A stretch of 64,000 nucleotides of DNA from Streptococcus suis (GTDB lineage: Bacteria; Bacillota; Bacilli; Lactobacillales; Streptococcaceae). Where the stretch lies: the NCBI GenBank assembly GCA_024583055.1, contig CP102145.1:1984001-2048000 (forward strand), written 5' to 3'. The translations under genes and the position numbers were made by a program. The first letter of the stretch is position 1. Each line of letters starts with the position of its first letter. Below are positions 12,451-37,118 of this stretch, in pieces. The notes beneath the pieces were generated by a model. It was not told the origin of the DNA, did no database searches, and worked only from the letters and a program-made list of their open reading frames with translations.

Positions 12451-12575
12451 TCGCAATCTTTCATCAATGCTAAGGAAAAAAGAAGAATAGTCAATTTCTT
12501 GTGTGTATGTTATTATAAATCTATAGAGCTACAGGGATTTTGAATACAGATTTTAAGTTTGGAAAGGAGGACGAG

Positions 12576-14633
12576 ATGCTATCAAAAAAGGAGATTCGAT
12601 TATTAGAATTTCTAATCGACCATCCAGATGATTACGTTTCTAGTTTGGAAATTGCTCAGCAGCTGCATATTAGCGACCGTACGGCTAGAACCTATCTGAA
12701 GCAGTTAACGGCTTCGCTACAAAATAGCGGGAGTCAATTGCTATCAAAGCCTGGTCTCGGTTATCATCTGCAAGTGGATGATTCTCGTGCATTTGAAACC
12801 TTTTGGCAATCCTCCCTTTCTTCCAAAAGGCAGCTGACCAATCTTCATTCGGTGGAAGAAGCTGTGGACAGGCAGAGATTTGTGCTCAATAAGCTCTTGT
12901 TTGAAGGACAGTCGCCAACATTGGCGGAATTGGAAAGGGACTTATTTATCAGTAAAACAACCCTGCACTCGGTGATTGTTGATATCCGAAACCTATTGTC
13001 ATCCTACGATATGGAATTAAATATGACAAAAGCAGGTTTAGAAATCACTGGTAAAGAGACGGCGATTCGGCATTTTATCATGGATTATTTTTTCAGCGAA
13101 CAGCTAGGGAAAACCTTATATGGACTCGTTGAGAATAACCTCCTTCCATCCATCAATTTCACAGAAATTATGAGGATTGTGATTGATGAATGTCGGGATG
13201 CCAGTCTTCGTCTATCAGATTTTGTATTGCAAAATTTGGTCCTTCATATCGCCCTGATGTTGCAGCGGATGCGGGCTGGCTCTGCAATTGAACGCTTTCC
13301 CATTTCAGAACAAATTAGTCGCTCTAAGGAATATCAGGTTGCCCAAAAAATTCTCAGGAAAATTGAAGGAGCCTTTGACCTATTGATTCCTGAGGAAGAA
13401 GCAAATTATATTGCCCTTCATTTGAAGGTTAAGCTGACGGAAAATCTGGCCAAAATAGATCAGGCAGAAGTGGCCTTGAGACAGCAAATTCAAGATAGTT
13501 TGCTCCAATTGTCTCGTAAGATCGGTTTAGAACTTTCTGCCGATCAGCAGTTATTTAAAGGAATTCTAGCCCACATGTTGCCCCTAAAAATCCGACTGGA
13601 AAATGGGATTGTCTTGGATAATCCATTGACGGAGGAGATTCGTAGGGATTATGCGGAAGTCTTTGACCTCACAAAGGAGGTCTTTGGACAAATGCCCCTC
13701 TTTCAAGGTTATAAAGTTTCAGATGATGAATGGGCTTATCTTTCCCTGCACTTGATGGCGGCAGTTGAACGGTACAATCCACAGCGAAAGACAAAGGTAT
13801 TGGTCGTTTGCTCAACAGGTGTCGGTAGTGCCTTGATGTTGAAAAATCGGCTGGAGAAAGAATTTTCTTCAAGTATAGAAATTGTAGATGTGGTCAGCTA
13901 TTACGAGGTGACCGAGGAGCGATTGTCTGATGTTGAGTTGATTATCTCATCTGTCAGTCTATCCAATCTTATCTTTATGACACAGGTTATCACGGTTTCC
14001 GTTTTTCTATCCGGAGAGGACGTCTCAAAGATAAAGCAACATTTGCAGCAAGGTTTGACTTTTTCGATGGGTGAGGAACATGGGGAAAATATGGACCATG
14101 TTCAAGCGCGTCAGATTGCTGAGGCGGTCTTTGGACCGAGTCGGATTGTGGTAGTCGATGAAAATAGGGAACGAATGTCCCTGTTGGAAGAGTTGACAAT
14201 GAAGCTGAATGAAGCTAGTCAGCCAGGTTTTGTAGAAACGTTTTTAGACCAGGTTCATCTGCGGGAGACCTATAGCTCTGTAGTATTTGAAGAAATGTTG
14301 GCCTTCCCTCATCCTGCGGTAGCAATGAGCTATTCAGAACAGATTGTAGTAGGCATTTCTAAAGAAGGTATCCGTTGGGGTGAGGAGGGAATCGTTCATT
14401 TTGTATTCTTACTATCCCCTTCAAAGGGGCGAAATTCTCACATAAAATATATATCCCCCTGTCTGGTCGAGTTTGTCAAAGACAAAGACCTACAAAAACG
14501 GTTGTTGAACAATCCAACCTATGATGAATTAGTAACTATTTTTATTCCCTTAATACAAAAACATACTAAGATTAGTAGTGAAGAAATCTCCGACGGGAGA
14601 GAGTACTCACTACTTTTTTCATTCTCAAGATGA
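12576..14633 (+). CDS. PRD-containing PTS-controlled transcription activator (LicR/MtlR type)
   Basis: The 685-residue regulator has an N-terminal HTH (SSLEIAQQLHISDRTARTYL), a second wHTH/Mga-like region (about 90-170), two PRD domains with phosphorylatable His (about 180-400), an EIIB-like domain with the P-loop Cys in VVCSTGVGSA (about 410-420) and a C-terminal EIIA type-2 domain with its His in AFPHPAVA (about 590). Such proteins activate a neighbouring PTS operon according to phosphorylation by HPr and EIIB. Start ATG 12576 has a perfect AAAGGAGG; the in-frame TTG at 12540 does not. The last residues (about SLLFSFSR) may come from IS110 sequence, so the original C-terminus could differ. 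Confidence 0.9.
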   Translation: MLSKKEIRLLEFLIDHPDDYVSSLEIAQQLHISDRTARTYLKQLTASLQNSGSQLLSKPGLGYHLQVDDSRAFETFWQSSLSSKRQLTNLHSVEEAVDRQRFVLNKLLFEGQSPTLAELERDLFISKTTLHSVIVDIRNLLSSYDMELNMTKAGLEITGKETAIRHFIMDYFFSEQLGKTLYGLVENNLLPSINFTEIMRIVIDECRDASLRLSDFVLQNLVLHIALMLQRMRAGSAIERFPISEQISRSKEYQVAQKILRKIEGAFDLLIPEEEANYIALHLKVKLTENLAKIDQAEVALRQQIQDSLLQLSRKIGLELSADQQLFKGILAHMLPLKIRLENGIVLDNPLTEEIRRDYAEVFDLTKEVFGQMPLFQGYKVSDDEWAYLSLHLMAAVERYNPQRKTKVLVVCSTGVGSALMLKNRLEKEFSSSIEIVDVVSYYEVTEERLSDVELIISSVSLSNLIFMTQVITVSVFLSGEDVSKIKQHLQQGLTFSMGEEHGENMDHVQARQIAEAVFGPSRIVVVDENRERMSLLEELTMKLNEASQPGFVETFLDQVHLRETYSSVVFEEMLAFPHPAVAMSYSEQIVVGISKEGIRWGEEGIVHFVFLLSPSKGRNSHIKYISPCLVEFVKDKDLQKRLLNNPTYDELVTIFIPLIQKHTKISSEEISDGREYSLLFSFSR

Positions 14634-14639
14634 TAAAGT

Positions 14640-14780
14640 AGAGGTGTCTTGTTAAGTCGAGGGTTCTTTTGACGCTAGACGTCGCGACAAAAACTGGCAA
14701 GACACCTGTTTTAGGAAGAATGTTATCAAAGTATGTGGGACGCCAGACGTCGAGTATTGAAAATGACATCGCTAAAACAA
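14640..14780 (+). ncRNA. Candidate bridge RNA of the IS110 element (two-lobed leader RNA)
   Basis: The leader folds into two consecutive stem-loops. Lobe 1: AGGTGTCTTG (14642-14651) pairs with CAAGACACCT (14698-14707). Lobe 2: GTTTTAG (14708-14714) pairs with CTAAAAC (14772-14778), and ATGTTAT (14720-14726) with ATGACAT (14763-14769). Each lobe has a large internal loop and ends in a nearly identical apical hairpin, GACG-CTAGA-CGTC (14671-14683) and GACG-CCAGA-CGTC (14739-14751). This is the layout of IS110 bridge RNAs, whose two internal loops carry target and donor guides, and it sits where they are encoded in IS621-like elements, upstream of the transposase. By eye the guide sequences could not be matched confidently to the borders. 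Confidence 0.6.
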
Positions 14781-14809
14781 GGAATCATTCAAGACAAAGA
14801 GGTAGTATC

Positions 14810-16012
14810 ATGCGAGTAGTATTTGGGATTGACGTGAGTAAGGTAAGTTCAGAAATAGCCATTCTAGTCAATGGCGAGAAGGTACATAACTACACCATGT
14901 CCAATGATGCCATTGGCTTTTCACGGCTACTTGGCGATTTGAGAACCGTCCACAAGCCAGAAATCATCTTTGAAGCAACAGGCGTCTATTCTCGTCGTCT
15001 TCAATCTTTTCTGGATGAACATGGCTACGCTTATACACGACTCAATCCCTTAGAAGCCAAGAAGCAACTGGATAGCTTGCGTGTGAGAAAAACAGATCAA
15101 ATTGACGCCGAAAAACTAGCTCAATCTCAGTTTGTACTGAATCGTAAATCGACGTATGTCCAAGAAGAAGTCTACCAAAACTTGCGGGATCTCAGTCGTT
15201 TCTATCAGAATCTGACCGAGGACATTGTTCGGGCTAAAAACCGCCTGCACAAGGTCTTACAGGTCACTTTCCCTGAATTGGAAAATATCTTGTCAACACC
15301 AACTGGTGAACAATACTGGAACTTAGTTATAGCTTTTCCTTGTAAGGACTTCGTGCTTGAGCTAAGCCAGGATAAACTCTTAGAAAGCATTCGTCAATCC
15401 ACTTCAAAACGGATTTCGGACAAGCGTGTGGCGTACTTAGCCGAAAAGCTGATAGCACTAGCTAATCAATCTTATTGTGCCGTCAAGAAAACCTCTCCAA
15501 TGCTGGAAGAGGTCCGTTACTATACAAAAGAATTGCTTAGACTTTCTGAACAGAGACAGGCAGTCTTAGACGAAATGGTGGAACTAGCCCAACCTTTACC
15601 AGAGTATGACATTCTGCTTTCTATTCCTGGTATCGCTGAGACTACTGCAACAAGTATTATTGGCGAACTGGGAGATATTCGCCGTTTTCAGTCTGCCAAT
15701 CAAATCAATGCCTTTATCGGTATTGACCTGAGACACTATGAATCTGGAAACTTCATCGCTAAGGAACACATTACCAAGCGTGGCAATCCCTATGCTAGAA
15801 AGATTCTGTTCAAATGCATTCACAATATCGCTTCAGCTAGTCACACCAATCCTTGCCATATAGCAGACTTTTATGAGAAACGAAAAAGGCAATCGCAAAT
15901 GACTTCAACGAAGCCACACACGATTGCCTCCATACATCGACTCATTCGGACAATGTATTACCTCATTATGCATAACAAACTTTACGATTACGCTTCAACC
16001 CAAAATCGATAA
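14810..16012 (+). CDS. IS110-family transposase (DEDD/RuvC-like recombinase)
   Basis: The 400-residue protein has the N-terminal RuvC-like fold with its acidic set: Asp in FGIDVSK, Glu in IFEATGVYS and the Asp pair in TDQIDAEKLA. The C-terminal transposase-20 domain has LSIPGIAETTATSIIGELG, then ESGNFIAKEHITKRGN containing the conserved Ser-Gly taken as the catalytic serine. The gene appears intact. I start at ATG 14810 (MRVVFGIDV), the family N-terminus; the frame is open further upstream but there it overlaps the structured leader. These enzymes form circles and insert with an RNA guide. The gene disrupts no reading frame visibly but splits the beta-glucoside locus. Confidence 0.93.
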   Translation: MRVVFGIDVSKVSSEIAILVNGEKVHNYTMSNDAIGFSRLLGDLRTVHKPEIIFEATGVYSRRLQSFLDEHGYAYTRLNPLEAKKQLDSLRVRKTDQIDAEKLAQSQFVLNRKSTYVQEEVYQNLRDLSRFYQNLTEDIVRAKNRLHKVLQVTFPELENILSTPTGEQYWNLVIAFPCKDFVLELSQDKLLESIRQSTSKRISDKRVAYLAEKLIALANQSYCAVKKTSPMLEEVRYYTKELLRLSEQRQAVLDEMVELAQPLPEYDILLSIPGIAETTATSIIGELGDIRRFQSANQINAFIGIDLRHYESGNFIAKEHITKRGNPYARKILFKCIHNIASASHTNPCHIADFYEKRKRQSQMTSTKPHTIASIHRLIRTMYYLIMHNKLYDYASTQNR

Positions 16013-16035
16013 AACTGTTTATGCTCTATCATTGT

Positions 16036-16074
16036 AACACCTTATCAAAAAATTTCAACATAAGGTGTTGGTTT
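16036..16074 (+). terminator. Hairpin after the IS110 transposase
   Basis: AACACCTTAT (16036-16045) pairs perfectly with ATAAGGTGTT (16060-16069), followed by GGTTTT. It probably ends transposase transcription and insulates the PTS genes from read-through. Confidence 0.65.
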
Positions 16075-16212
16075 TGTATACACTTTTTTCACTAAACTTT
16101 AGTCCAAAAGAAAACAATTTCCTTATTTTGACTATTGAACTCAAAATATTTTTCGTCAAATACCTTGATAGACTTGACAAATGGTAGAAAACAGAAATAG
16201 GAGGAAAAGATA

Positions 16213-37004: not shown

Positions 37005-37025
37005 TCATTTTTTTGAAAATTATGC

Positions 37026-37118
37026 TATACTGGAAAACGTTGTAAATACAACCCTTGGGGCTTGCTCACTTTACCCAAGCATATTTCAGGCGGTCAACCC
37101 GCTAAAGGAGAATTTTTT
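37026..37118 (+). promoter_or_regulatory. preQ1-II (COG4708) riboswitch with promoter for queT
   Basis: TGC-TATACT is the promoter. The RNA then has GTTGTA/TACAAC, CTTGGG (37054-37059) pairing with CCCAAG (37074-37079), the TTGCTCAC and TTCA loop segments, and GCGG/CCGC (37090-37093 and 37099-37102) just before AAAGGAG (37104-37110). This is the preQ1-II fold known from streptococci, which hides the ribosome site when preQ1 is bound. Confidence 0.9.

Follow-up and report, generated by a model that had tools for sequence, protein, structure and literature searches.

The leader at positions 14640-14780 of the window (the whole 64,000-nucleotide stretch of Streptococcus suis DNA that was analyzed) very probably encodes the bridge RNA of an IS110-type element, with lobe 1 acting as the target loop and lobe 2 as the donor loop. 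This assignment bears out an earlier note on this DNA, which had proposed a candidate bridge RNA here, and it is evidenced by the fold, the covariation of the stems, the matching of guides to insertion flanks, and a location on the 5' side of the transposase gene. Sequence comparisons also support four guides and their polarity: when the transposase gene sets the frame, the guide order appears to be the opposite of that in IS621, even though the RNA is upstream in both elements. The element appears to be a naturally occurring variant, differing in its arrangement, of an already known RNA-programmed DNA recombiner.

The element and its main parts outside the leader RNA are as follows.

14559..16191, plus strand: IS110-type element of about 1.63 kb, delimited by two-copy comparison, end motifs in relatives, and unoccupied sites.
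14567..14572, plus strand: TAAGAT, a -10-like promoter half, read from sequence, with a 17-nt spacer to the TTGACA of the right end when the ends join.
14810..16012, plus strand: DEDD transposase/recombinase of 400 amino acids (P0001), with matches to PF01548, PF02371, and NF033542.
16036..16069, plus strand: hairpin AACACCTTAT...ATAAGGTGTT downstream of the transposase gene, followed by a T-rich stretch, from the fold of 16012-16191.
16174..16191, plus strand: right end TTGACAAATGGTAGAAAA, with a -35-like TTGACA and the left-donor sequence GTAGAAA, conserved in the ends of relatives.

A second copy in the source genome (G000) is identical across window positions 14555-16191 and different outside them, and the end motifs AAACATACTAAG and GGTAGAAA are conserved among relatives; the exact ends are ambiguous by a few nucleotides, both falling within A-runs. 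The two copies and an unoccupied site in a relative show that the element is inserted at the very 3' terminus of a gene for a PTS-type regulator; NCBIfam matches of this regulator to the AcpB/EbpR/MafR and GlcT families all fall short of the respective cut-offs. The regulator reading frame (12540-14633) continues into the element, where its present stop codon lies at 14631-14633. At the unoccupied site (L268), the regulator terminates ...FIPLIQKQG*, and the IIB gene follows directly. Because the copies diverge outside 14555-16191 and the regulator at the empty site ends earlier, the final ~23 codons and the stop of the regulator frame are element sequence. The 176 nt that the earlier note had counted between the regulator stop and the transposase start is, therefore, right as arithmetic but is not the length of the element's leader, since that stop lies inside the element; the left end (LE) before the transposase gene spans ~14559-14809, or about 250 nt. 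The right noncoding end is also long, at about 177 nt.

When the ends are joined, the TTGACA of the right end and the TAAGAT of the left end would form a promoter in the circle. A TTGAC word stands ahead of the right end in 17 of 17 distant relatives, whose ends were themselves located via TTGAC-like words. The As at both junctions and at the free site, counted by hand, give the circle junction GGTAGAAAACATACT and therefore place the crossover in the A-tract, with the exact core blurred by A-runs.

P0001 scores 228.6 against NF033542, "IS110 family RNA-guided transposase" (cut-off, 140), and an ESG motif is visible by eye. Its closest named protein relatives are 97% (L134, S. suis) and 99.8% (an S. 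suis plasmid) identical. The transposase frame is open through the RNA, over window positions 14669-14809, and the S. suis plasmid record annotates a similarly longer transposase, probably with an over-extended start. A start at 14669 was not adopted here, since that frame covers the guides.

The leader RNA comprises a 5' stem-loop and two lobes, each with an apical hairpin between two guides, as listed below.

14574..14619, plus strand: 5' stem-loop AGTAGTGA...TCACTACT followed by TTTTTT, terminator-like, upstream of both lobes, from the centroid fold of 14568-14810.
14642..14707, plus strand: lobe 1, the probable target-binding loop, from fold, flank scan, and stem covariation.
14660..14670, plus strand: putative 5' target guide, from a complementary diagonal between LE 14659-14668 and right flank +12 to +3.
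14671..14683, plus strand: lobe 1 apical hairpin GACG-CTAGA-CGTC, with double-sided changes in alignments A1 and A2.
14685..14694, plus strand: putative 3' target guide CGACAAAAAC, identical to the top strand of the left target, from an identical diagonal between LE 14684-14693 and left flank -10 to -1.
14708..14778, plus strand: lobe 2, the probable donor-binding loop, from fold, covariation, and co-change with the element ends.
14730..14736, plus strand: putative 5' donor guide AGTATGT, complementary to the element's left end (ACATACT), from co-changes with the left end in relatives.
14739..14751, plus strand: lobe 2 apical hairpin GACG-CCAGA-CGTC, with double-sided changes in A1 and A2.
14754..14763, plus strand: putative 3' donor guide GTA(TT)GAAAA, matching the right end GTAGAAAA with a 2-nt bulge, from sequence and from swaps in relatives seen by eye.
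14790..14796, plus strand: CAAGACA, complementary to the 5' strand of the lobe 1 stem (TGTCTTG, 14645-14651), from own versus swapped helix scores in relatives.

On direct reading, the outer stem of lobe 1 (AGGTGTCTTG at 14642-14651 with CAAGACACCT at 14698-14707) is a perfect 10 bp, and that of lobe 2 (GTTTTAG at 14708-14714 with CTAAAAC at 14772-14778) is a perfect 7 bp, which ATGTTAT (14720-14726) and ATGACAT (14763-14769) extend with one G-U pair. The internal loops measure 19 and 14 nt in lobe 1 and 12 and 11 nt in lobe 2. The stems, twin hairpins, coordinates, and loop sizes first described in the earlier note are all correct, and the folding and covariation analyses that it had proposed both favor the structure. 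Folding of 14640-14780 gave -41.6 kcal/mol (z -3.04), with 0 of 200 shuffles as stable, and the minimum free energy structure recovered both outer stems and the lobe 2 apical hairpin while pairing the interior of lobe 1 differently. Alignment A2 holds 10 distant left ends out of the 21 in A1, and its structure and register were drawn from its first row, which favors that structure; within it, 91.4% of cells are paired versus 28.8 to 47.6% when the strands are slid, 15 of 27 named pairs show double-sided changes, and the covariation score is 0.494 versus 0.219 (sd 0.024) in shuffles. Further pair types are less striking (34 versus 28.7, with 13 of 500 shuffles as high). RNAalifold on the 21 sequences of A1 recovered only the two apical hairpins, with double-sided changes at 6 of 8 pairs, because MAFFT misaligns the outer stems between lineages; these stems were therefore counted on the 10 sequences of A2. 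Moreover, G-U/U-G cells number 27 in the A2 stems versus 6 A-C/C-A cells, which was counted in favor of the RNA strand.

A search of the whole window with Rfam 15 found no family matching the leader region. The sole match at gathering scores anywhere in the window is a preQ1-II riboswitch at 37021-37118 (77 bits). Counterparts of the 5' stem-loop at 14574-14619 were seen by eye in relatives, and this hairpin is absent from the plus-strand list of the promoter/terminator scan. Lying between the junction promoter and the lobes, it might block read-through from outside when the element is inserted.

The structure and donor tests excluded several broken or partial loci (L220, L223, L228, L232, L238, L239, and L241) and the copy at L249, whose upstream DNA is without lobes; L232 is without lobes as well. 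Separately, the left ends of L066, L067, L069, L070, and L073 are about 67 nt shorter than usual. Read by eye, the deletion spans from one apical hairpin to its twin and leaves one fused lobe that keeps the 5' target guide and the 3' donor guide. L067 and L073 have an identical left flank.

Loop 1 is, by eye, the most variable part of the leader. The earlier note could not match the guides of its loops to the borders by eye; matching succeeded here by using relatives. The additional material consisted of 40 fetched stretches and 78 loci from a named-genome scan, with contigs partly shared between them. After parsing and removal of duplicates, 104 left-end/flank records remained, of which 85 gave both guides (18 distinct 3' guides and 30 distinct 5' guides) and 58 also had a right flank; the records dropped were 19 of the 104 without a parsable guide pair, fused-lobe copies among them, and 27 of the 85 without 26 nt of right flank. 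Each aligned LE column was scanned against each flank position for identity and complementarity, with flanks permuted among elements. The scan was reduced to unique guide/flank combinations (n = 59 left and n = 55 right); the permutations leave some relatedness among elements.

On each side, the six best five-base windows fall on one diagonal. For the left flank in the identical sense, LE 14684-14693 gave a best score of 30.1 versus a null maximum of 10.4 in 1000 permutations (n = 59), and for the right flank in the complementary sense, LE 14659-14668 gave 19.1 versus 11.5 (n = 55). Identity with the top strand of the left target means that the 3' target guide would therefore pair with the bottom strand. 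The opposite senses in the same left-end scan gave no signal, their best windows having p values of 0.65 and 0.86. Guide-flank matches average 4.05 of 6 on the left versus 2.75 when permuted (z 10.5) and 4.40 of 8 on the right versus 2.93 (z 7.4), or 5.62 versus 4.24 (z 10.2) when a one-position shift is allowed. A first, less reduced pass (72 left, 58 right) placed the four best cells on the left diagonal; for the right flank, off-diagonal single cells reached 5.5 (complementary) and z 6.7 (identical) versus 5.4 for the best diagonal cell, and it is the diagonal sum that separates the right-flank diagonal from such high single cells.

Matches are often partial: over the variable positions, the in-register match is perfect in only 3 of the 59 combinations on the left and 2 of the 55 on the right. 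The window copy is a poor example, since its guides agree with the left target at 7 of 9 positions but with the right target at 4 of 11 in register, or 6 of 11 when shifted by one. The second copy in the source genome matches its right and left targets at 9 of 11 and 7 of 9 positions. Single-element guide scans are weak, with most matches not beyond shuffles (L258-L261, L218, and L246). Target guides were tested singly in two of the 17 distant relatives, L218 and L246 (the latter a further copy of the L221 element): the left-target match is beyond shuffles in both (0.017 and 0.003, respectively) and the right-target match is weakly so (0.060 and 0.117).

Two families of intergenic repeats, CCACTACAGTTGACAAAGAGCC and GGGAGCGGGAAAGAACTCGACTGGTC... 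(L074-L103 and L104-L133), have received insertions repeatedly, and copies of both repeated targets were collected by pattern search. Among 60 repeat contexts examined, 46 are element-free, 13 are occupied, and 1 holds a truncated copy. The free targets mostly read ...GTTGACAAAGAGCC or ...CTGGTC-A-run-GAGTTCG, in agreement with the guide prediction. In the truncated copy (L098, G075:C1 around 712242), the left target half GTTGACAAA is joined to the interior of the RNA gene at the 3' target guide, as if the target had recombined with the DNA that encodes the guide.

Comparison of lobe 2 with the element ends was carried through the relatives, for which both ends were set by copy comparison in the multi-copy genomes G318 and G529, the left end only in G339, and the conserved motif was used elsewhere. 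Eight distinct left-end variants were set against their 5' donor guides: six match perfectly (CATACT/AGTATG, CTTACT/AGTAAG, CGGACT/AGTCCG, CATATT/AATATG, AATACT/AGTATT, and CATCCT/AGGATG), one has a single mismatch (CAACCT/AGGCTG), and one, L235, fails. This co-change is equaled in 4 of 40320 permutations, the hexamers having been written down after both sides had been seen. By eye, the 17 distant relatives fit the clade layout, the exceptions lying in the 5' donor guide, where L235 fails and L230 is one base off. The streptococcal 5' donor guide has GG where an A-tract core would need UU. On the other side of the hairpin, swaps between GGAAA and AGAAA/TGAAA in the 3' donor guide agree, by eye, with the relatives' right ends, and extra bases most often separate GTA from the GGAAA/AGAAA/TGAAA word.

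Put together by strand, the 5' guides read the right target and the left element end, and the 3' guides read the left target and the right element end, an order of top then bottom in both loops with the RNA upstream. One could suspect that the bridge RNA is an ordinary one in the IS621 order and that the reversal is an artifact of assigning left and right, given that the lobes, the apical hairpins, and the 2-nt bulge resemble those of IS621 (PMC11208158). Yet left and right were fixed throughout by the direction of the transposase gene, the alternative senses carry no signal, and six control insertions read alike give the IS621 order, all of which makes such an artifact improbable. These controls (L273-L278) are IS110 insertions from the same bacterial order, with transposases 27 to 29% identical to P0001 and the RNA upstream as well. 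In these controls, the 5' guide matches the left target in the identical sense (own sum of 31 versus a permuted mean of 23.3, with 6 of 720 permutations as high) and does not match the right target's reverse complement (416 of 720 permutations as high), in a small set where two of the six insertions are copies of one element and one guide is only partly read. The control polarity rests on the six insertions jointly because single-element scans are weak. With the controls coming out in the IS621 order, the reversal is not a product of the reading rule.

Another reading places the guide RNA on the 3' side of the transposase gene, as in IS1111, and treats the leader structure as incidental. The length of the right noncoding end would suit this reading, and two of four right-end scans, both with the right flank, are marginal (p 0.028 and 0.050). 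The same scan, run on 180 nt of the right end in 58 rows with 44 unique combinations on the left and 55 on the right, however, found no comparable diagonal, and the best score is 9.2 versus a 99% null of 9.8, against 30.1 and 19.1 in the left end. We therefore regard a 3' guide RNA as extremely improbable and place the bridge RNA on the 5' side.

The leader might instead be a transcription attenuator or anti-readthrough element that controls the transposase. Upstream of the lobes is a terminator-like hairpin with a T-run, and shortly before the transposase start, a third strand (14790-14796) competes for the lobe 1 stem. Among 14 representatives chosen from 21, own third-strand partners score 15.96 versus 11.85 (sd 0.72) when swapped, with 0 of 20000 as high; for comparison, the lobe 1 pairing itself scores 16.04 versus 12.89, with 3 of 20000 as high. 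In alignment A1, this alternative pairing is kept while its sequence changes among relatives. What an attenuator leaves unexplained is that loop 1 covaries with outside DNA and loop 2 with the element ends, and as a replacement for the guide RNA, it is very unlikely. An attenuator role may exist in addition to the bridge RNA, and the third strand could be either a closing helix or a switch. If the competition is real, the transcript would switch between guide RNA and transposase messenger, which would couple the supply of RNA and enzyme.

The element matches 133 of 284 genomes of the genus. Across the order, 43 of 295 genomes hold a relative at E <= 1e-30 (30 by hand count at 1e-45 or better), and among 398 genomes sampled from the phylum, 1e-45 was passed only by G000 and one genome of the same class. 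The clade seems to be mainly, not exclusively, from Lactobacillales. In a tree of 26 rows with long reference branches, few references, and a midpoint root, the reversed clade's 18 rows form one group (100/99), separate from IS4321, IS621, ISCro4, ISEc32, ISEc45, and the control elements. We tentatively propose a Lactobacillales-centered IS110 clade that combines a bridge RNA of reversed polarity, an A-tract core, and a conserved third strand competing for the target-lobe stem, a combination that is possible rather than probable.

For steps beyond sequence pairing, we infer a mechanism by analogy with IS621. The excised circle would join the right end to the left end and so build the promoter TTGACA-17 nt-TAAGAT, from which the RNA would be transcribed first and then the transposase. 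The recombinase would bind the RNA, the two loops would hold the target and the circle junction for strand exchange, and exchange would take place in the A-rich core.

Should experiments bear out the polarity, the order of the guides in IS110 elements would be independent of where the RNA lies, and a third class would have to join the two drawn in two reports (PMC11208160, PMC11187229), namely IS110 (RNA upstream, one order) and IS1111 (RNA downstream, the other order). The complex of recombinase and RNA could then work in both orientations with respect to the gene that encodes it, a point that, if true, bears on the evolution of the IS110 and IS1111 arrangements. For the engineering of bridge recombination, these closely related recombinases, with their different core and many guide specificities, would be a useful natural collection, and the many natural guide variants of such elements document past retargeting.

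As in IS621, the RNA lies upstream, and a 5' stem-loop precedes two lobes with guides in internal loops, of which the target loop is first and variable and the donor loop second and conserved; a promoter spans the end junction, and a short inverted trinucleotide, GTA/TAC in the S. suis element, flanks the donor core (PMC11208160). Two nucleotides are likewise flipped out of the 3' donor guide (PMC11208158). The S. suis element differs from IS621 in the guide strands, whose order with respect to the transposase gene is the opposite in both loops, in its A-tract crossover versus the CT core (PMC11208160), and in its transposase of 400 amino acids versus a chain length of 328. A bottom-strand guide 5' of a top-strand guide is the order reported for IS621 and ISEc21 (PMC11208160, PMC11187229). 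The seekRNA of ISEc21, an IS110-type element with guides bottom then top (Siddiquee et al., PMC11187229), is similar in lying upstream of the transposase gene and in reading the target on both strands, but its guide order is the opposite, with the bottom-strand match first.

The tested IS1111 elements (ISEc11, ISPa11, and ISKpn4) have guides top then bottom with the RNA downstream (Siddiquee et al., PMC11187229), and the target guides of the S. suis element resemble their seekRNAs in placing the top-strand-complementary segment 5' of the bottom-strand-complementary one. IS1111 RNAs are usually downstream of transposases of 330 to 350 amino acids (PMC11187229), whereas the S. suis element has an upstream RNA and a 400-amino-acid transposase. 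The IS1111 group also has subterminal inverted repeats of 7 to 17 bp (PMC11208160); these were not seen in the ends read by eye, which have only the 3-bp GTA/TAC. A more distant likeness is with tigRNAs (TIGR-Tas), in which two spacers define the DNA target, although these are guide arrays for a nuclease, not a recombinase, and have no donor loop (PMC12045711). Because tigRNA guides with spacers A and B swapped stayed functional (PMC12045711), a swap of polarity is plausible. By class features, the S. suis element departs from IS110 in guide order and from IS1111 in RNA location and, by eye, in inverted repeats, while it shares the upstream RNA with IS110 and a top-strand guide 5' of the bottom-strand guide with IS1111.
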